Shown here in pieces: positions 1 to 64,000 of a DNA stretch of 64,000 nt. The DNA lies in NCBI RefSeq assembly GCF_023703415.1, contig NZ_JAGMTU010000003.1, forward strand, positions 1 to 64,000, given 5' to 3'. The notes under the pieces were generated by a model. The model was not told the DNA's origin and made no database searches. It saw nothing but the letters and a program-made list of their open reading frames with translations. The stretch's first letter is position 1, and each line of letters begins with the position of its first letter. Both the position numbers and the translations under genes were made by a program. This DNA comes from Microbacterium sp. USTB-Y. Lineage in GTDB: Bacteria > Actinomycetota > Actinomycetes > Actinomycetales > Microbacteriaceae.

Positions 1-190
1 TGGGTTCGGTGCTGTGGCGGGGTTCGGTGCTGTGGCGGGGGTTCGGTGCCCTGGCGGGGGTTCGGCGCCGTGGCGGTGGGTTCGGTGCTGTGGCGGGGTT
101 CGGTGCTGTGGCGGGGGTTCGGTGCCCTGGCGGGGGTTCGGCGCCGTGGCGGTGGGTTCGGTGCTGTGGCGGGGTTCGGTGCTGTGGGGG
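1..190. repeat. 76-bp G-rich tandem repeat
   Basis: Direct repeat of 76 bases beginning at 1, 77 and 153; the third copy is partial and the array probably continues before the window. Each unit is itself built of shorter GGTTCGGTG-type blocks. Because 76 is not a multiple of three, reading frames through it shift at every copy, which argues against a protein repeat. Confidence 0.9.
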
Positions 191-9398: not shown

Positions 9399-11117
9399 AT
9401 GACCGGATCCGCGTCGCGCGTCAGACTGCCGGCTGCCGCGGCCGGCGTCGCGGCGGCTCTGCTCGGCATCGGCGCCGGCGAGCTCGCCGCGACGCTGCTC
9501 GCGCCGTCGTCGAGTCCGTTCGCCGTCGTCGGCGGGTTCCTCATCGACGGCGCGCCCGCGTGGGCGAAGGACACGGCGATCGCGTGGTTCGGCACCGGGG
9601 ACAAGGCGGCTCTGCTCACCGGGATCGCCCTCGTGCTGCTCGCCGCAGCCGGCGCCCTCGGGCTCCTGCAGCGACGCTTCCGCGGGGTCGGGGTCGCCGG
9701 ATTCCTGGCGCTGGGCGCCGCCGTCGCGGTACTCGCCCCGCTGCGCGCCGACGCCGCCCCGCTGTCCTGGCTGCCCGCGCTGGTGGCCGGCATCGTCGCC
9801 GCACTCGTCGTGCGCGCCCTCGTGCGACGGCTCCCCGACCGCGAAACCGAACCTGAGTCCCGAGACCGCGCGACAGAACCGCTGTCTCGGGACGCAGGTT
9901 CGGTCTCGCGGTCCACCGCCCCGCAGCCCACCTCCCCGCCGTCAGCAGCCCCGCGCTCCGCCGCCCCACCGTCAGCAGCCCCGCGATCCACCGCCCCGCA
10001 GTCCGCAGCCCCGCCGCCCGTGGCCGCCGCCCCGGCAGCGGACGGTCCCACCCGCCGGCGCTTCCTCGCCTGGACCGCCGGGGCCGCCGCGGTCGGGATC
10101 CTCGCGACGGTCGCGGCGACGGCGGGCCGGGCCGGATCCGTCGCCGTGACCGCCGTGCGCACGGCGCTCCGCCTGCCGAAGCCGGCCGTGGCCGCCGCGC
10201 CGATCCCCGCCGGCGCCGCCCTGAAGGTCGACGGGATCAGCCCGCTGATCACGCCGAACGCCGACTTCTACCGCATCGACACCGCCCTCGTCGTGCCGCA
10301 GGTGGATCCGGCGCAGTGGCGGCTGCGCATCCACGGCCTCGTCGCGCACGAGGTCACGCTCACCTGGGACGAGCTGCTCGCGCTGCCGCTCGTCGAAGCG
10401 GCGGCGACCCTGTCGTGCGTGTCGAACGACGTCGGCGGCGACCTCATCGGCAACGCCGTGTGGCTCGGCTACCCGATCCGCGAGCTGCTCGCGAAGGCGC
10501 AGCCCGCCGCCGCCGCCGACATGGTGCTGTCCACCTCGGTCGACGGCTTCACGGCGGGCACCCCGATCGAGGCCCTGACCGACGACCGGAACGCGCTGCT
10601 CGCCATCGGCATGAACGGCCGGCCGCTGCCGATCGAGCACGGGTTCCCGGTGCGCATGGTGGTGCCCGGGCTGTACGGCTACGTCTCGGCGACGAAATGG
10701 GTCACCGATCTCGAGGTCACCCGATTCGACCGCGCCACGGCGTACTGGACCGCTCGCGGCTGGTCGGCGCGCGGCCCCGTCAAGCTCGAATCGCGCATCG
10801 ACGTGCCGAAGTCCGGCCGCGCGCTCCGGGCCGGGGACACCGTGATCGCCGGCGTCGCCTGGCAGCCGCACGCCGGCGTCTCCGCCGTCGAGGCGCAGAT
10901 CGACGACGGTCCGTGGCAGCGCGCCGAGCTCGCGCCCGCCATCTCGGCCGACACCTGGGTGCAGTGGCGCCTCCCGTGGGCCGCGACCGCAGGACAGCAC
11001 ACCCTCCGCTGCCGGGCGACGGGTGCGGACGGCACGGTGCAGACCGCGGATGTCGCTCCCCCGGCTCCCGACGGCGCGACCGGCTGGCACACGATCGACG
11101 TCTCGGTGAACGCCTGA
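9399..11117 (+). CDS. Membrane-anchored molybdopterin-dependent oxidoreductase (sulfite-oxidase family)
   Basis: A 572-residue protein. Four hydrophobic segments occupy residues about 5-145; a linker of about 70 residues follows; then RRRFLAWTAG near 218 begins a further, Tat-like membrane segment. The rest is the sulfite-oxidase molybdenum-cofactor domain, with the probable Mo ligand Cys340 in SCVSND, and a C-terminal Ig-like dimerisation domain. It should act outside the membrane; the electron donor is unknown. The linker contains a dispersed palindromic repeat (9840-9911) and APQS/AAPRS-type repeats. TACGCT at 9387-9392 lies six bases before the ATG, which indicates a leaderless message. 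Confidence 0.85.
   Translation: MTGSASRVRLPAAAAGVAAALLGIGAGELAATLLAPSSSPFAVVGGFLIDGAPAWAKDTAIAWFGTGDKAALLTGIALVLLAAAGALGLLQRRFRGVGVAGFLALGAAVAVLAPLRADAAPLSWLPALVAGIVAALVVRALVRRLPDRETEPESRDRATEPLSRDAGSVSRSTAPQPTSPPSAAPRSAAPPSAAPRSTAPQSAAPPPVAAAPAADGPTRRRFLAWTAGAAAVGILATVAATAGRAGSVAVTAVRTALRLPKPAVAAAPIPAGAALKVDGISPLITPNADFYRIDTALVVPQVDPAQWRLRIHGLVAHEVTLTWDELLALPLVEAAATLSCVSNDVGGDLIGNAVWLGYPIRELLAKAQPAAAADMVLSTSVDGFTAGTPIEALTDDRNALLAIGMNGRPLPIEHGFPVRMVVPGLYGYVSATKWVTDLEVTRFDRATAYWTARGWSARGPVKLESRIDVPKSGRALRAGDTVIAGVAWQPHAGVSAVEAQIDDGPWQRAELAPAISADTWVQWRLPWAATAGQHTLRCRATGADGTVQTADVAPPAPDGATGWHTIDVSVNA
9840..9911. repeat. Dispersed palindromic repeat, family A copy 2, inside a gene
   Basis: Arms CGCGAAACCGAACCTG and CAGGTTCGGTCTCGCGG enclose inner CCGAGACCG and GTCTCGGGACGC. 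It matches the intergenic copies at 350-421 and 33709-33782. Here it is read in frame and encodes the segment TEPESRDRATEPLSRDAGS in the linker of the oxidoreductase. Confidence 0.85.
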
Positions 11118-26905: not shown

Positions 26906-28740
26906 CGTCCGGATACCTGCCCGAAGAGCTTCGCGATGGGGGCGAGGACGAGGGGCCGGGCGGCGGCCCATCCTGCGGCGATCACGACGAGGGAGAGCAG
27001 GAACACCCAGAACCCGGTCCAGGTCACGGCGTCTTGCGCGGCGAACATGTGGTTCAGGTTGCGCAGCATGCCGGTGAGCAGCACGAGCGCCACGTGCACC
27101 ACGATGAACGCGGTGAAGAACAGCATCGTCGGGAAGTGCACCGCGCGGGCGATCTCGATCGGATAGGCCTTCGACAGGCCCGCCGCCTTCTTGGGCCAGA
27201 GCCCCGACATCCGGAACCCGGTGGCGATGGCCACGGGCGCGGCGAGGAAGACGATCGTGAAGTAGGCGAGCTGCTGCAGGCTGTTGTAGTTCACCCAGCC
27301 GTTCTCGGTCGGCCAGTCGAAGGAGACGTACTGCAGAGCCGCCGAGAGCGCGTTCGGGAACACGTCCCAGCTCGTCGGCACGATCCGCATCCACTGGCCG
27401 GTGACGAACAGCAGCACCACGAAGATCACGCCGTTGACGATCCAGAGCAGGTCCAGCCCCTGGTGGAACCACAGGGTCAGGCTGATCTTGCCCTTCGGGT
27501 TGCCCCGCGGCGTCCAGAACGCGGTCGGCCGCTTCTCGCTGCGCACGCGCAGGCCGGAGCGGATGATCAGCGTCATCAGGAACACGTTGAAGAAGTGCTG
27601 CCAGCCGATCCACCCGGGGATCCCGACGGGCGCGCCCGCGGGCAGGTGGTACTCGCCCGGATAGGTCGTGAGGAAGTCCTGCATGAACGGCAGGCTGAGG
27701 AACGCCCGCACGATCGCGATCGCGGCGCCCGCGAGGACGGCGAGGCCCGCCGCGGCGAACAGCCCGCCGATCGCCTGCGGCCAGGTGGGACGCAGCTTCG
27801 ACGCCGCGGGCTCCGCCGCGACGTGACGGGGGGCCGAGCCGTTCCAGACGGTGCGCGTGAACGGCAACGGCGCAGAGACATCCGGGCGCACAGCGACGGC
27901 GGATCCGGCCCCGGCATCGTTGAGCGAGGACGCCGCAGCCCGCACGGGGTCGTTGAGCGAGGACGCCGCAGGCGCCCGAGACGAAACGCCGTCCGGCACG
28001 GACCGTGCATCGTCTCGCTCGGCGACCACGACGACCGTCCCGGCCGGCGGCCACGGCTCACCGCCGGCCACGCGCGGCAGACCGCGACGCAGGACGGATC
28101 CGGTCGCGGGGGCACTCGGCGCGGCCGCCGCGGACGACGCCGCAGCCCCCACGGAGTCGTTGAGCGAGGACGCCGCAGGCGCCCGAGACGAAACGCCGTC
28201 CGGCACGGACCGCGTTTCGTCTCGCTCCGCTCGCTCGACGACCCCGGGGGCGCTCGGTACGACCACCGTCGCAGCGCCCGCCGGGGGCCACGGCTCACCG
28301 CCGGCCACGCGCGGCAGACCGCGACGCAGGACGGATCCGGTCGCGGGGGCACTCGACGCGACCGCCGCCGCACCCCCGGGAGCCGCCGCCGAGGACACCG
28401 AAGCCCCCACAGGGTCGTTGAGCGAGGACGCCGCAGGCGCCCGAGACGAAACGCCGTCCGGCACGGACCGCGTTTCGTCTCGCTCCGCTCGCTCAACGAC
28501 CCCGGGGGCGACAGTCACCCGGGTCGCCTCGGCCTCGGGCCCGGGGGCGACAGTCACCCGGGTCGCCTCGGCCTCGGGCCCGGGGGCGGCAGCCGGCTCC
28601 GCCGACGCTCGCTCGACGACCCCGGGGGCGACGACCCCCGGAGCGGCGACCGCGTCGAGCGCACTCGCCGCGACCACTCCGGCCGGCGGCCAGGCCTCGC
28701 CGCCTCGGATACGGGGCAGTCCCCTGCGCACGGTCGTCAT
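26902..28740 (-). CDS. Cytochrome b/b6-domain membrane protein with repeat-built N-terminus
   Basis: 612 residues. The C-terminal 320 residues carry about five membrane segments with histidines in WQHFFN, WFHQGLD, AVHFPTM and VVHVALV, the expected ligands of two b hemes in thiosulfate-reductase or hydrogenase-type cytochrome b subunits. The first 290 residues are hydrophilic and repetitive: [15 protein letters not shown] occurs three times, each followed by [19 protein letters not shown] blocks that come from dispersed repeat family B, plus a tandem [13 protein letters not shown]. The gene follows etfA after two bases, so it may pass electrons between ETF and the membrane; this is inference. 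Confidence 0.8.
27914..28504. repeat. Three in-gene copies of dispersed palindromic repeat family B
   Basis: Copies at 27946-28034, 28153-28247 and 28412-28504, with a half copy at 27914-27937. Each begins GTCGTTGAGCGAGGACG, passes through CGAGACGAAACG and GTTTCGTCTCG, and ends in a complementary CGCTCAACGACC-type arm. The spacing of about 200-260 bases includes the [15 protein letters not shown] coding block, so the whole compound unit has been duplicated. All copies keep the cytochrome gene in frame. Confidence 0.9.
28501..28592. repeat. 39-bp tandem repeat in the cytochrome gene
   Basis: Units at 28501-28539 and 28540-28578 are identical and a third begins at 28579. Each encodes 13 residues ([13 protein letters not shown] phase) and so keeps the reading frame. 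Confidence 0.88.
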
Positions 28741-28742
28741 GG

Positions 28743-29744
28743 TCAGCTCTTCCGTGCGCGCAGCGCCTCGATCACCTGCGGCACGACCGTGAACAGATCG
28801 CCCACGATCCCGAAGTCCGCCACATCGAAGATCGGCGATTCCGGATCCTTGTTGATCGCGACGATCGTCTTCGCCGTCTGCATGCCCGCACGGTGCTGGA
28901 TCGCGCCCGAGATCCCGACCGCGATGTACAACTGCGGCGACACCGACACACCCGTCTGACCCACCTGATGCGCGTACGGGATGTACCCCGCATCGACCGC
29001 GGCACGGGAGGCGCCGATCGCCGCACCCAGCTCGTCGGCGAGCTCCTCGACGAGCGCGAAGTTCTCCTGGGATCCGAGCCCGCGCCCGCCCGACACGACC
29101 ACCTTCGCGCCGCGCAGCTCGGGCCGCGACGACGCGGCCTCGACCGCCTCGATCGGCTCACCGGTCGCCGCGGCGGCACCCGACGCCGCCACCGCAAGCT
29201 CCTCGACACGGGCATCGGCGACGGCCTCGGCGCGGGCGTCGATCGCGCCCTGGCGCACCGTGATCACCGGGACGCCGAACGTCGGAGCCGAGTCGGTGAG
29301 GAACGCCCCGCCATAGACCGAATGATGCGCGACCACGCCCTCGTCGTCGCGGGAGACCCCGATCGCATCGACCGACAGCGCCAGGTGCTCGCGCACGGCG
29401 AGACGCGCAGCGGCGTCGCGGCCGGCGATCGAGTTCGAGACGAGCACCGCGTCGGGGCCGACCGCACGGTACGCGGCCTGCAGCGCGTCGACCACCGGCA
29501 CGGTCACCGACCCGCCGTCGACATCTGCGGTGAGCACGACCTGCGCACCTGCCGCGACAGCCGCGTCGACCGCCGCCTGTGCGGTCCCGGAGGGGGCGGC
29601 CACGAGCGCCACCGGGGCGCCGAGCTTGGCCGCGGCGCCGAGCAGACCCGCGGTCGAGGGCGCGGCGCCACCGGCCGGGGTCACGTCGACGAGGACGAGG
29701 ATCGCCGCAGCGCCGTCTACGAACTCGGGGTACGCCATGCTCAC
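28743..29744 (-). CDS. etfA: Electron transfer flavoprotein alpha subunit
   Basis: Holds FAD and, with EtfB, carries electrons from acyl-CoA dehydrogenases to the membrane. The 333-residue protein has the N-terminal ETF domain and a C-terminal FAD domain with [28 protein letters not shown] and [25 protein letters not shown], all family hallmarks. The GTG at 29744 overlaps the etfB stop (GTGA); an ATG two codons later is the alternative. The order etfB-etfA-cytochrome-GNAT is one tight minus-strand transcription unit. Confidence 0.93.
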
Positions 29745-33708: not shown

Positions 33709-33782
33709 CCGCGAGACCGAACCTCGCGCACGAGACCGACGGAACAACCCACGGTCTCGGGACGCAGGTTCGGTCTCGCGGA
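33709..33782. repeat. Dispersed palindromic repeat, family A copy 3
   Basis: CCGCGAGACCGAACC on the left pairs with GGTTCGGTCTCGCGG on the right; inner arms are CACGAGACCG and CGGTCTCGGGACG. It lies between mmsB and the enoyl-CoA hydratase gene, which are otherwise in one operon, and is followed by GGATCGAGG-type short repeats. Confidence 0.88.
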
Positions 33783-33845
33783 AGATCGAGGGGATCGAAG
33801 GGATCGAGAGGGATCGAGGGGATCGGGCTCCCGCCGCGGCTGCGG

Positions 33846-37809: not shown

Positions 37810-39594
37810 TCAGCGCTCCCAGGTGACCTGCGGGTCCGCCTTGCCGAAGTCCACGGTCGGAGTGTCCAGATACCCGCCGAACGTGACCGTGTAGGTCTGG
37901 CCGTCGCTGCCCTGCAGGCTCATGTCGACCGGGATCGAGTCGTACGCCGACACGACCGTCGGCGAGGATCCGTTGCTCTCCGGCTCGAGCGTGTCGAGCG
38001 CCGCGCTGCCGTCCGCCGTGAGCGTGCGGGTGACCGTGCCCTCCACCGCGGTCGCCCCGGACAGGTCGATCCCGGTGATGTCCATGCCGCACGGCGTGGA
38101 TAGCGTCTTCAGCGCCACGCAGGACTCGACGGCGCTGCGCACGAGGGAACGGAACTCGGAGACTCCGGCGTCGTTGAGCTTCGTCGACACGTCGTAGAGC
38201 TCCGAGGCGTCGTCCGAGGACGCGATCGTGAACGTCGAGTCGCCGTCGATCGAGAAGTACTTCGAGTTCAGCTCGATCTCATAGGAGCCCGGGAAGACGT
38301 ACGCGTCCGTGATGCCGTCGGCGGAGACCCCGTTGAAGGTCGCGTCGAGGCCCCGCAGGGCGTCGAGCGAGATGGGCGTGACGCCGTTCGCGATCTTCCA
38401 GGTGTCCTTGACCTTGTACACCTCGTACGTGGTCGACACCGAGCGGTCGCCGACCTCGAAGGTCGCCCGGACCGAGCCCGAGTACTTGCTCTCGCTGCCC
38501 TTCGCCACCGAGATGTGGCTGACGCCGCCGAGCTTGTCGGAGGCCTTCAGCACCTCGTCGGTGAGCAGCTTCTTGTCGGGGACGCCCTCGAGATAGCCGA
38601 GCGCCGTCTTCGCATCGCCCTTCGAGACGGCCGTCAGATACGCCTTGACCGAGTCGGCGGCCGTGACTGAGGAGCGTGTGATCGCGGGGACCACGAGCAG
38701 CGCCACGATCAGGATCAGGACGATCAGCACGGCGACCCCGCCGCCGATCAGTCCCCAGATCAGGCCCTTCGAGGTCTTCTTCGGCGGCTGCCCTCCGGCC
38801 TGGGCGGCGTAGGGCTGCCCCGGGTAGGGCTGGCCGGGCTGCGCCCCGTAGGGCTGCCCCGGATACGGCTGGCCCGGCTGCCCTGGGTAGGACGGACCTG
38901 GCTGCGCCCCGTAGGGCTGACCCGGCTGACCCGGGTACGGCTGGCCCGGCTGCGCCGGCTGCCCCGGCTGACCCGGGTACGGCTGGCCCGGCTGCGCCCC
39001 GTAGGGCTGGCCCGGCTGCCCCGGGTACGGCTGGCCCTGGCCCGACTGCCCCGGGTAGGGCTGAGCGCCGTCGGCTGGACCGGCGCTGCCCGGAACGATC
39101 TGCGGATACGGCTGCCCCGGCGTCGGCTGCCCCGGTACCTGCGCGCCCGGGACGGCCGGTGCGGGGTACGCCCCCGGAGGCGGGAACGCCTCGGTGGGGT
39201 ACGCCTCGGTCGTCTGCTCGGACGCGGCCTCCCCGCCCGAGGGCGTGGAGAGCGTCGCAGGCTCGGCCGCCGGCTCCGGTTGTGCAGGCTGTGCCGCGGG
39301 CTCCGGGTGTGCGGGCGGGGCGGTGGGCGAAGGCACCCCCGGGGCATCGCCCGAAGCGGTCGGGGCGTCGCCCGAAGCGAGCGCGGCGTCGCCCGAAGCG
39401 AGCGCGGCGTCCGAAGCGGGCGCAGCGTCCGAAGCAGGCGCGTCGCCCGAAGCGGGCGGGGGGACGTCGCCCGGAGCCTGGCTCCCCGCCGTCGATGCCG
39501 GCGGAGTCGCGGGCGGCGGGGTCGTCCGACCCTGCTCCCCGGATCCGAAATCGAGTTCGTGCCCGCCCTGCGGCGATTCCCCGTCCGTTGCCAT
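37810..39594 (-). CDS. Membrane protein with Pro/Gly/Gln repeats and a C-terminal exposed domain
   Basis: 594 residues, family not recognised. Residues 1-270 are disordered: an Ala/Ser/Pro segment with repeated ASGDAPAS units, then about fifteen PYPGQPGQ or QPYGAQPGQ units. One membrane segment spans about 276-305 ([19 protein letters not shown]). The remaining 290 residues form an exposed domain that starts [22 protein letters not shown], as in DUF4878-like lumazine-type folds, with a cysteine pair (ESCVAL, STPCGM). TAGTCT lies six bases before the ATG, so the message is probably leaderless. The cytosolic repeat tail resembles those of actinobacterial envelope and cell-division proteins. Confidence 0.78.
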
Positions 39595-39906
39595 GGTTTC
39601 AGACTAGCGAGCGGTCCGATCCAGTTCGATGGGCAGAACTGCCCGCGCCACCGCCGAGGCCCGACGTCTGCGCCACGGATCCGGATCCGTTCCGGTCGCA
39701 GAAGATGTCGTTGACGCCCGCTCTGGGCGACATCTTTTGCGACCGGAACGAAGGAATTGCGACCCGAACGAAAGGATTGCGACCCGAACGAAGGAATTGC
39801 GACCGGAACGAAGGATCTGCGACCCGAACGAAGGAATTGCCCCGAACGAAGGAGACGCGCGACAACCGGAACGGCGGAGATGCGTGCGGCGGGGCAGGCG
39901 GCAGAT
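39595..39906. other. Intergenic region dominated by hairpin and tandem repeats
   Basis: No gene is seen between the leaderless start of the upstream gene and the araA stop. The repeat array at 39689-39848 fills most of it; the rest is unremarkable. Confidence 0.7.
39689..39848. repeat. Inverted repeat plus five 20-bp tandem repeats
   Basis: GTTCCGGTCGCAGAAGATGTCG-type left arm (39689-39710, 22 bases) and its complement (39727-39748) differ at one position and enclose a 16-base loop. The right arm is the first of five 20-base units of GAACGAAGGAATTGCGACCC (39746 onward). The GTCGCA/TGCGAC core relates it to family E elsewhere in the sugar region. It lies downstream of araA. Confidence 0.82.
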
Positions 39907-44000: not shown

Positions 44001-44439
44001 TCCCGTCAAGGGGGCGCCGACGCGACGTCGACGCGGCGTCACCCGGCACGCTCGGGAGGACGCACTCCCCCTTACCCGTCCCGGAAGCTCCCCCGGTTCC
44101 GGACCCCCGTTCGGCGCTCTCCCCGTTCCGGCCGCCCGGTTCCGGACCCCCGGTTCAGGACCCCGTTCCGGACTCCTCCCCCGTTCAGACCCCTCCCCGT
44201 TCCGTCCCGTTCAGACCCCCTCCCCTTCTCCGACCCCCGTTCAGGTCGCACTTTCGGCTCCATCTGGATCCCACAAGCCGCAGAAACTGCGACCCGAACG
44301 AGGGAAGTGCGACCCGAAGCGGCAGGACGCCCTCGCACGCGCGCTCGGTACGCGCTCGCGGCAGGAGGCCATCGCACGCGCGCTCGGCGCGCGATCCGGG
44401 CCGTGGATCCGCGCCGTGGATCCGTCGCAGAGCGCGCAG
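44001..44439. other. Repeat-rich intergenic region
   Basis: No gene is seen. 44085-44240 is a run of CCCCGTTCCGGACC and CCCCGTTCAGACC variants of about 14-20 bases. 44239-44317 is a family E element: TTCAGGTCGCACTTTCGGC on the left, AAACTGCGACCCGAACG on the right. 44318-44400 repeats CGCACGCGCGCTCGG twice. Confidence 0.7.
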
Positions 44440-45481: not shown

Positions 45482-45563
45482 CCTCAGGTCGCATTTCGGT
45501 CGCTCAGGTCGCACTTTCGGCTGCATGAGCACGCCGGAGAGAGCGGAAACTGCGACCTGAACG
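45482..45563. repeat. Family E hairpin repeat
   Basis: CTCAGGTCGCATTTCGG and GCTCAGGTCGCACTTTCGGC occur in direct repeat, followed by GGAAACTGCGACCTGAACGG in inverse orientation. It lies after the stop of a LacI gene on the minus strand. Confidence 0.85.
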
Positions 45564-46684: not shown

Positions 46685-47040
46685 GCCTGCGAGTGTACGG
46701 GGACGGCGTCGTCCGCCGGCGACGGCGCCGGTGCGCGGCGCCGGTGCGCGGCGCCGGTGCGCGGCGCCCGGAGCCCTCCACCGTCCTTTCCGTCCGCCGG
46801 TCCAAGACCGGCGCCGTAACTCCTGCCACCCGCACGGCCCATCCAGGTCGCAATCCGGGCGTTCAGGTCGCGATCCATGAGCTCAGGTCGCGATTTCGGC
46901 TCCAACAGGGCCTGCGGAACAGCAGATAGTGCGACCTGAACGATCACGACGGGACCAGGCAGGACCAGACGAGGCCAGGCGGGGCCAGGCGCGGGCACGG
47001 GGCCGCACGGGGCCGGGCACGGGACCGCACCGGGAGTCGG
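46685..47040. other. Intergenic region with three repeat types
   Basis: 46724-46770 is a 13-base tandem of GGCGCCGGTGCGC (about 3.5 copies). 46852-46942 is a family E element with three TCAGGTCGC direct copies and one GTGCGACCTGAACG inverse copy. 46950-47035 is an irregular GGCCAGGCG and CACGGGGCCG repeat. No gene is seen. Confidence 0.75.
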
Positions 47041-54307: not shown

Positions 54308-54365
54308 TCGGCGGCCCGTCCCGCCGCCGGGGCGCAGTCGATTCGTTCAGGTCGCACTCTGGCGA

Positions 54366-54424
54366 TTCAGGTCGCAGAATCGGCTGTTCCCAGGCCCCGG
54401 GAACAGCCGATTCTGCGACCTGAA
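54366..54424. terminator. 26-bp perfect hairpin containing a family E repeat
   Basis: The left arm 54366-54391 and right arm 54399-54424 are exactly complementary over 26 bases with a seven-base loop. The outer part is TTCAGGTCGCAGAATCGGC, as in the other family E elements, with an extra TTCAGGTCGCACTC half copy just upstream at 54345. It lies 59 bases after the abfA stop, a fitting place for the operon terminator. Confidence 0.85.
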
Positions 54425-54532
54425 CGGGATCCGGACCCGAGTAGAGGATCCTGATCCGAGCAGGCAGGCCGCGCCCAGGGCGGCGGCGGAGGTCTCCCAC
54501 ATCCCCCGCCGCCCCCTGATCCGTCCGAGGGC

Positions 54533-61339: not shown

Positions 61340-61369
61340 GCGCCGCTCGCCGGTCCTGCGCCGCTCATC

Positions 61370-61503
61370 GTTCAGGTCGCACTTCTGGCGCTGCCGACCA
61401 CCCTGGGGCCGCCGAAAGTGCGACCTGAACGGGCGGAGTGCGACCTGAACGGGCGGAGCACGACCTGAACGGGCGGAGTGCGACCTGAACGGGCGGAGCG
61501 CGA
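61370..61503. repeat. Family E hairpin with four tandem copies of one arm
   Basis: GTTCAGGTCGCACTTCTGGC on the left is answered by AAGTGCGACCTGAACGGGC, and that arm is then repeated three more times with a 20-base period (GCGACCTGAACGGGCGGAGT). The array starts 30 bases after the kinase stop and may serve as the operon terminator. Confidence 0.88.
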
Positions 61504-62308: not shown

Positions 62309-63436
62309 TCAGCCCTCGATGTGCCGCTCGTCGACGCCGTTGTAGGCGGACAGCGGGCGGATCAGCGCATTGGACGCGGCCTGCTCCATGATGTGCGCGG
62401 TCCAGCCCGTGATGCGGGCCGCGATGAACAGCGGCGTGAAGATCTCCGTCTCGAAGCCGAGCAGGTGGTACGCCGGCCCCGACGGGTAGTCGAGGTTCGG
62501 ATAGATGCCCTTGCGCGCGACGAACTCGGCCTCGAGCGTGTCGTACAGCTCGGCCAGATCCGTGCGGCCGGTGTCGGCGATGAGCCGGTCCAGCGCCGCC
62601 TTCATGGTCGGCACCCGCGAATCGCCGCTCTTGTAGACCCGGTGGCCGAAGCCCATGATCTTGCGCTTGCTCGCCAGGGCGTCGTCGAGCCACGGCACGA
62701 CCCGGTCGGCGGATCCGATCTCCTCGAAGATGTGCATCACGGCCTCGTTCGCCCCGCCATGCAGCGGGCCCTTCAGCGCACCGATGGCGCCGACGACCGC
62801 GGAGTACAGGTCGGCCGTGGTCGATGCGATCACCCGCGCCGTGAAGGTCGAGGCGTTGAAGGAGTGCTCAGCGTACAGCACCATCGAGATCCGGAACACG
62901 TCCACGGCCGCCTCCGAGGGCAGCACCCCGAACGTCATCCAGAGGAAGTTCGTCGAGTAGTCGAGATCGGCACGCGGATCGATCGGCGCGAGCCCCCAGC
63001 GGCGGCGCTGCACGGCGGCGACGATCGTCGGGATCTGCGCGAGCAGGTACACGGAGCGGCCGAGGTCGAGCTCGCGGTCGGTCCAGCCGCCCGGGCGGTG
63101 CAGGCTCGGGTCGAACGTGCCGAGCTGGCTGACCGCCGTGCGCACCACGTCCATCGGGTGCGCGTCGAGCGGGATCAAGTCGAGCAGGGCGAGGGTGCGC
63201 GGATCCAGCGGACGGAACGCCCTCTCCTGCGCCTCGAACGCGGCCAGCTGTTCGGGCGTGGGCAGTTCCCCGTTCCAGAGCAGGTAGGCCACGGCCTCGA
63301 ACGACTGAGTCGCCGCGAGCTCCTGCACGGGATAGCCGCGGTACAGCAGGCTGTTGGTCTCGGGGTTGACCTTCGAGATCGCCGTCGTGTCGACGACGAC
63401 GCCCGCGAGGCCCTTCTTGATGTCGGGGTCGCTCAT
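62309..63436 (-). CDS. prpC: 2-Methylcitrate synthase
   Basis: 375 residues of the short citrate-synthase type. Condenses propionyl-CoA with oxaloacetate. KGLAGVVVDTTAISKVNPE at the start, YAEHSFNASTFTARVIAST, LHGGANEAVM with the first catalytic histidine, IMGFGHRVYKSGDSRVPTMK with the second, and YPSGPAYHLLGF near the end are typical of PrpC. Linkage to prpB supports this over ordinary citrate synthase. AAAGGAG precedes the ATG at 63436. Confidence 0.9.
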   Translation of the reverse strand: MSDPDIKKGLAGVVVDTTAISKVNPETNSLLYRGYPVQELAATQSFEAVAYLLWNGELPTPEQLAAFEAQERAFRPLDPRTLALLDLIPLDAHPMDVVRTAVSQLGTFDPSLHRPGGWTDRELDLGRSVYLLAQIPTIVAAVQRRRWGLAPIDPRADLDYSTNFLWMTFGVLPSEAAVDVFRISMVLYAEHSFNASTFTARVIASTTADLYSAVVGAIGALKGPLHGGANEAVMHIFEEIGSADRVVPWLDDALASKRKIMGFGHRVYKSGDSRVPTMKAALDRLIADTGRTDLAELYDTLEAEFVARKGIYPNLDYPSGPAYHLLGFETEIFTPLFIAARITGWTAHIMEQAASNALIRPLSAYNGVDERHIEG

Positions 63437-63465
63437 GGTTCTGCTCCTTTGCAATACGCCCGCCC

Positions 63466-63568
63466 GGGGTCGTTGAGCGAGGACGCCGCAGGCGACCGAG
63501 ACGAAACGGGGTCTCCTGCTGATCGCCGCGTTTCGTCTCGTCGCTGCGCTCCTCGCTCAACGACCCCG
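63466..63568. repeat. Dispersed palindromic repeat, family B copy 4
   Basis: A full copy: GGGGTCGTTGAGCGAGGACG and CGAGACGAAACG on the left; CGTTTCGTCTCG and CTCGCTCAACGACCCC on the right. It lies between prpB and prpC and overlaps the last codons and stop of prpB by 12 bases. It could form a hairpin in the prpBC message. Confidence 0.9.
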
Positions 63569-64000
63569 TAGCGGGGTGGTGTCGATGCGGAAGTTGAAGA
63601 CGTTCGTGTCGAAGTGGTTGTAGGACTCGTAGTCGATGAGGTCGTACAGGTCCGCCCGGTGCTGCATCTCGCCGAGCTTCGAGGTCAGATGCCCCTCCTC
63701 GTTCAGCGTATCCAGCGCGCGCCCGGTCGCGCCCATCGCGATCCGCAGCATCGAGACCGGCCAGATCACGATGCTCACGCCGGCGTCCTTCAGCTGCTGC
63801 GTCGTGAACAGCTCGCTCTTGCCGAACTCTGTCATGTTCGCCAGGATCGGCACGTCGAGCTCGGAGGCCATCCGCTCGAACTCGGCGAGCGTGCGCATCG
63901 CCTCCGGGAAGATCGCGTCGGCCCCCGCGTCGACGAGAGCCTTGGCCCGGTCGACGGCGGCGTCCATGCCCTCCACGGCGCGGATGTCGGTGCGCGCCAT
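63557..64000 (-). CDS. prpB: Methylisocitrate lyase, C-terminal part (gene runs past the window end)
   Basis: The visible 147 codons are the C-terminal half of the PEP-mutase-type lyase that splits 2-methylisocitrate into pyruvate and succinate. MARTDIRAVEGMDAAVDRAKALVDAGADAIFPEA (several blocks), ILANMTEFGKSELFTTQQL and IVIWPVSMLRIAMGA are characteristic; the N-terminal half with the KKCGH-type motif lies beyond 64000. The stop codon TGA comes from the GTTGAGC of the family B repeat, so the final residues (RGR) are partly repeat-derived. Confidence 0.92.
   Translation of the reverse strand: MARTDIRAVEGMDAAVDRAKALVDAGADAIFPEAMRTLAEFERMASELDVPILANMTEFGKSELFTTQQLKDAGVSIVIWPVSMLRIAMGATGRALDTLNEEGHLTSKLGEMQHRADLYDLIDYESYNHFDTNVFNFRIDTTPLRGR

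Follow-up and report, generated by a model that had tools for sequence, protein, structure and literature searches.

A dispersed REP-like palindromic element lies in frame in the linkers of a Microbacterium cytochrome gene

Rickettsia palindromic elements of ~105-150 nt comprise several families and occur both between genes and fused in frame in conserved genes (PMC2229807, PMC10969869). Short mobile repeats of free-living bacteria (ERIC/RU-1, YPAL, Correia) were likewise described as fused in frame to other ORFs (PMC2229807), coding palindromes were described in Pseudomonas aeruginosa (PMC4496055), and palindromic amphipathic repeat coding sequences are a further case of palindromic repeats described as coding (PMC2996958). 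GTAG and CGTC REPs are paired short hairpins, often arranged head to head, that are present in many copies and occur also as intragenic units, and the CGTC REPs are described as lacking a dedicated transposase (PMC3733652). The same paper, whose main text does not contain the string 'actinobact', mentions untagged REP-like sequences in Mycobacterium tuberculosis, so that REP-like repeats in actinobacteria are as such not new.

Here, we describe a dispersed palindrome of ~100 nt from Microbacterium that occurs between and within genes, including in-frame insertions in conserved genes for which orthologues without the insert exist. The best reading is that it would work like the Rickettsia elements, which it resembles in layout and placement. 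It differs from them in its host, a free-living actinobacterium, as well as in its double-stem design, its GNA-looped lateral hairpins and its tandem arm arrays. Inverted pairs of short hairpin monomers liken it to REPINs and, as with the CGTC REPs, no RAYT family match accompanied it (23 genomes), whereas, in contrast to the GTAG and CGTC REPs, its monomer has a variable lateral hairpin with a GNA loop, and no unpaired GTAG or CGTC tag was identified in it. The in-frame fusion is shared with ERIC/RU-1, YPAL, Correia and the P. aeruginosa palindromes, but those are other elements from other phyla. Wolbachia palindromic repeats are also said to have been described as coding. Among the titles and abstract beginnings listed in a literature search, none reported protein-coding palindromes in actinobacteria, which is weak evidence given that few subscription journals were covered, and a search with four short pieces of the element sequence returned no paper. 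What is new is the present architecture and scale in a free-living actinobacterium rather than the principle, because repeats fused in frame have already been published for free-living bacteria (PMC2229807, PMC4496055).

Within the window (the whole 64,000-nucleotide stretch of DNA that was analysed), the element has three copies in the gene of a b561-type membrane cytochrome (Table 1). PF01292 matched residues 382-566 of this ORF (E 2e-9, above the curated cut-off), and the gene comes after an etfA-like gene, the NCBIfam matches of which lie below their cut-offs. The first ~285 residues of the cytochrome consist of three GLPRxxGGExWPP blocks joined by linkers, and in orthologous cytochromes the conserved RRGLPR block directly follows the ATG. 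Three or more GLPRxxGGExWPP blocks were present in 60 of 80 orthologous loci (exactly three in 58), while several of the remaining 20 loci start near a contig end. Hence, the triplication of the blocks is older than the element copies, and the proposal that duplication of a compound unit gave rise to the block repeats had to be abandoned. Between our genome and the 58 orthologues, the blocks showed 1063 synonymous and 340 nonsynonymous codon differences, indicating that they are translated; because the blocks upstream of residue 285 thus evolve as protein, the true start does not lie past that residue, a contrary possibility that the original prediction had raised. In our genome, blocks 2 and 3 share 98% identity, versus 69-90% in 12 other orthologues, and have been homogenised. 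The extended motif RRGLPRxxGGExWPP (window 28039-28740) is a conserved short motif of the etf-linked cytochrome, found usually three times in Microbacterium and in two or three copies in Arthrobacter and Sinomonas loci; a regular-expression scan found no further copy elsewhere in the window.

Table 1. Positions of the cytochrome gene, its conserved blocks and the palindromic repeats in the window.
Feature	Position	Strand	Basis	Remark
b561-type membrane cytochrome, 612 aa	26902..28740	minus	ORF and PF01292 match	
Conserved block 1	28678..28740	minus	orthologue comparison	ancestral
Conserved block 2	28276..28329	minus	orthologue comparison	ancestral
Conserved block 3	28039..28092	minus		ancestral; 98% identical to block 2 in own genome
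In-frame element copy 1	28413..28505	minus	sequence match, arm pattern, translation	linker 1
In-frame element copy 2	28156..28247	minus		linker 2; 99% identical to copy 1
In-frame element copy 3	27948..28036	minus		linker 3; 90% identical to copy 1; one arm decayed
Extra arm	27916..27932	minus	17-mer arm search, translation	peptide ASSLND
Arm-like fragment	28606..28651	minus	window repeat families (D11)	linker 1; peptide GVVERA
39-bp direct repeat	28501..28592	minus		linker 1; its 13-residue peptide occurs twice
Intergenic copy, same family	63466..63570	no strand		between two minus-strand genes
Second palindrome, five copies	44238-44300, 45501-45563, 46880-46942, 54364-54426, 61369-61431			

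Blocks and elements alternate along the cytochrome N-terminus, as had been claimed, and all three predicted in-frame copies, each ~93 nt long, were found in the N-terminal linkers of the 612-aa ORF. The shared peptide beginning ETRSVPDG that had been ascribed to each of them holds for two copies but not for the third, with its decayed arm. Linker 1 additionally carries arm-like fragments which, together with the direct repeat, span 28501-28660. Upon searching the window with the 17-mer arm at up to two mismatches, we obtained six matches, a number reached by none of 100 shuffles. The intergenic copy predicted at 63466-63568 is real: it lies just past the end of one gene, whose called end at 63557 overlaps the last bases of the element, and ahead of the start of the next. 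Rfam gave no match at E 0.1 for 27850-28750 and, for 63350-63700, only three microRNA models, all far below their gathering scores.

Other repeats were also observed in the window. A second dispersed palindrome (CGTTCAGGTCGCACTTTCGGCT...AGTGCGACCTGAACG) is present in five copies (Table 1), and arrays of its 20-bp arm lie at 39737-39860 and 61418-61501; a third palindromic family (CCGCGAGACCGAAC...GTTCGGTCTCGCGG) has three copies at 348-426, 9839-9917 and 33709-33787. The contig start (window 1-190) consists of tandem repeats of the GGGTTCGGTGCTGTGGCGG type with a 19-bp step (family D2), and GC-rich repeats of family D1, whose step is mostly 24 or 15 bp, occupy window 38779-39061, which may be a repetitive coding region.

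The element is a head-to-head pair of ~45-nt monomers, each composed of an outer arm, a GNA-looped mini-hairpin and an inner arm. Along a full copy, an outer stem (GGGGTCGTTGAGCGAG) is followed first by a lateral mini-hairpin and next by a central stem (CGAGACGAAACGCGG), whose loop is variable; the mirror image completes the copy. The arms also occur in tandem arrays. Among 88 parsed copies from our genome, G065, G059 and other genomes (four loci being counted twice), there were 71 distinct lateral sequences. Read from the outer to the central arm, a GNA triloop was present in 116 of the 127 lateral hairpins having at least two pairs, and another 41 short lateral hairpins had the form C-GNA-G, which the arms complete to GCGNAGC. 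Among 32 distinct hairpins selected for having G-N-A at the centre, the four stem positions paired in 78% of cases versus 51% when the halves were re-dealt, with 65% as the highest value among 2000 re-dealings. Copies that occupy one and the same site in different species differ in their lateral hairpins, so that insertion ages are not directly readable.

DNA mini-hairpins of the d(GCGAAGC) type are extraordinarily stable, the rule for them being a GNA loop with at least two G-C pairs (PMC4686876). Most lateral hairpins of the element follow the same rule, although those mini-hairpins are synthetic oligonucleotides and the element is a genomic repeat family. Both strands of two tested copies folded as DNA 7.6 to 10.2 SD below shuffles (for copy 1, z values of -7.6 and -8.9 as DNA and of -8.0 as RNA). 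ViennaRNA with DNA or RNA parameters gave no clear advantage of the GNA strand over its complement, and the folding energies favoured neither DNA over RNA nor one strand; the tie to the mini-hairpin rule is therefore taken from PMC4686876. We infer that the element acts, and presumably spreads, as folded single-stranded DNA, moved by a putative trans-acting enzyme.

With an E limit of 10, and with fragments and both strands included, the element matched the 4.1-Mb genome 140 times, in line with the claim that this is a dispersed DNA element and not a protein domain. By arm pattern, at least 33 distinct full copies were present in ~0.2 Mb of stretches fetched from our genome, with at least one further copy outside these stretches, which disposes of the idea that copies elsewhere in the genome might not exist. 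The element was matched in 16 of the 22 genomes reached via cytochrome orthologues. Of 44 Microbacterium genomes, own included, 25 had matches, from 1 to 112 per genome, with the highest count in G008. A family-wide search, in which at most two candidates per genome were scored, gave a weak lower bound of at least 7 matching genomes out of 299, own included, two of them from other genera and matched in short pieces. The element has spread in part of the genus Microbacterium. None of 50,697 phage records matched, and 72,556 plasmid records contained one match, from Microbacterium, over 44% of the query.

To place the copies, we used gene calls from a codon-usage script that recognises in-gene copies in in-frame cases only. 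After four duplicate loci, one copy each, had been dropped from 97 copies, 93 were placed (32 own, 24 from G065, 22 from G059 and 15 from others, the relatives' copies being taken from best hits). Intergenic positions accounted for 72 copies, of which 37 lie between convergent, 32 between codirectional and 3 between divergent genes; convergent gaps make up 6 of 39 in the window, and their excess among the intergenic copies was significant both by count (p 1e-12) and by length (6e-9). The median distance to the nearest stop codon was 19 nt over 73 copies, a set that includes the later-dropped duplicates and two cytochrome copies counted as intergenic.

The other 21 copies lie in frame inside 15 different genes of the sample, in agreement with the likeness to Rickettsia palindromic elements that the original prediction had pointed out. 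In our genome, the hosts are the cytochrome (three copies), KdpB, a DUF993 protein, an NAD-kinase-like protein and a putative ABC-exporter-like ORF, as well as CysN at its N-terminus and CobA and a molybdopterin oxidoreductase at their C-termini. Relatives add a Lhr-type helicase, an HrpA-like helicase, an L-aspartate-oxidase-like and an amine-oxidase-family flavoprotein, an ABC ATPase, a permease (N-terminus) and a VWA protein (near the N-terminus). The family profiles of KdpB and DUF993 each match in two stretches, the best of which ends at most 6 residues from the element, and on chain B of PDB 6hra the extra residues of KdpB map between positions 434 and 437. For the DUF993 protein, an AlphaFold model had a mean pLDDT of 50 and was discarded. 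Judging from open frames and conserved flanks, the in-gene inserts are probably translated.

Empty sites could be aligned for KdpB and DUF993. The KdpB insert is present in our genome, G059 and G065 and absent from G060, G061, G062 and G063, with G062, counted as empty, having a 9-base arm-like stretch at the insert site. The inserted stretch of KdpB also holds ~14 residues after the element. The KdpB and DUF993 alignments showed no clear target-site duplication, the most being TCGGGG at both ends of the inserted KdpB stretch. The DUF993 loop contains the element in our genome and G062 and a rearranged element in G059, and is empty in G065 and G014. In G060 and G063, this loop is occupied by a repeat with another outer arm and 32 and 58 genome matches, some of which are only the 22 bases common with the element family; we had considered this repeat unrelated, but rejected that view and regard it as a relative of the family because of the 22 shared bases. 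G061 has another insert there, which is not clearly dispersed (2 matches with itself). At the CysN N-terminus, the element is found in our genome and G065 and about half of it in G059, while G064 has two copies of a different repeat. Across species, the cytochrome linkers, the CysN N-terminus and the DUF993 loop have each taken up different or variant repeats.

Codon comparisons separated the KdpB enzyme from its insert. Between our genome and G059, the core showed 136 synonymous and 33 nonsynonymous codon differences and the insert 0 and 7 (Fisher p 2e-5). The comparison of our genome with G065 was weaker (core 147 and 72, insert 1 and 4; p 0.046), and G059 versus G065 gave 165 and 65 for the core and 0 and 4 for the insert. 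The enzyme core is under purifying selection, and the inserted peptide is without sign of selection, although the hairpin pairing itself may forbid silent changes in the insert.

Across the genus, element presence and copy number vary among the cytochrome orthologues. After 4 sequences without a block had been removed from 81, 16 of 77 cytochromes (own included) carried the element family in their N-terminal DNA, and 9 of 77 a second repeat family (query from G005, which has 63 matches). One or the other was present in 24 of the 77 linker regions and in none of 47 cores, which remained from 80 loci when 33 without the anchor used to cut the core were excluded. The nearest relative, L061 (97% identical over the matched 349-aa query), carries a single element copy, in linker 1; no copy of the element family was detected in the loci L062-L066, of which L065 and L066 match the second repeat family, and L067 has element pieces in linkers 1 and 3. 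The repeats are thus not common to all orthologues. In L073, L078 and L098, half-elements flank block 2, as if the block occupied the palindrome loop.

The three cytochrome copies of our genome have the same central loop. Because of this shared loop, the near identity of blocks 2 and 3, and the single copy of L061 in linker 1, the sequences suggest one insertion followed by local copying. Insertion into the first N-terminal linker would have come first, after which linkers 2 and 3 were probably filled by recombination between repeated blocks or elements, an order of events that we infer; separate insertions into linkers 2 and 3 may have occurred instead. More generally, the element has spread through part of the genus, chiefly into the gaps behind stop codons, and copies that came to lie in frame within flexible loops or linkers were retained and are probably translated.

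We weighed this account against a role of the element peptides as protein, for example in block spacing or partner binding. Three blocks with linkers between them are the usual layout, and an acidic RDET-type frame at the left central arm is used by 20 of the 21 in-gene copies, as a protein role would have it. These copies do not, however, count as independent, since five genes contribute more than one of them, and the frame preference, read by eye, may amount to avoidance of an Arg-rich alternative frame. Moreover, 53 of 77 cytochrome N-termini show neither tested repeat family and the KdpB insert changes at nonsynonymous sites whereas the enzyme does not, which makes a protein role quite unlikely. 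Other systems can bypass hairpins located within coding sequence, and the cytochrome N-terminus might accordingly be untranslated or its hairpins hopped over in translation. We consider this extremely improbable, as the blocks evolve as protein on either side of the elements and between them, and as the translated in-gene copies are open with the frame kept (only in-frame cases being recognised), which bypass would not need.

The hairpins could alternatively have been selected for an action in mRNA, that is, slowed translation, message protection or intragenic transcription attenuation. Their stable RNA folds and the preference for 3' ends, with the many copies between convergent genes, would suit such an action, and the folding energies leave room for it by favouring neither DNA over RNA nor either strand. 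Yet the hosts of the in-gene copies are unrelated proteins in which the copies occupy different positions, and the triloop rule agrees with the known rule for DNA mini-hairpins (PMC4686876), so that selection on mRNA appears unlikely. Head-to-head hairpin monomers, arm arrays and the 3'-end preference would equally fit a classical REP/REPIN moved by a RAYT (Y1 transposase), but PF01797, the RAYT family, was without a match in 23 of 23 genomes, in a search whose control matched 5 of 14 known genomes. This explanation is largely contradicted, barring a Y1 enzyme too distant for the PF01797 model, and is very improbable. We therefore consider it highly likely that a REP-like, non-autonomous palindromic DNA element has spread within Microbacterium, has been kept in frame in linkers and has been locally copied in the cytochrome gene. 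A broader proposal is tentative and more doubtful than not: GNA-looped palindromes would be replicators that spread as folded single-stranded DNA by means of a putative trans-acting enzyme, and repeats of several families would feed disordered linkers.

In-frame palindromic repeats are best known from Rickettsia, and here they occur in high-GC Microbacterium, in 15 genes of our sample. With filled and empty sites available in related species, several of them isolates, the tolerance of enzymes to sudden inserts of ~30 residues becomes testable, as does the origin of disordered linkers. Furthermore, the adherence of naturally varying hairpins to the GNA rule suggests a role for the DNA single strand and offers a handle on the mobiliser.
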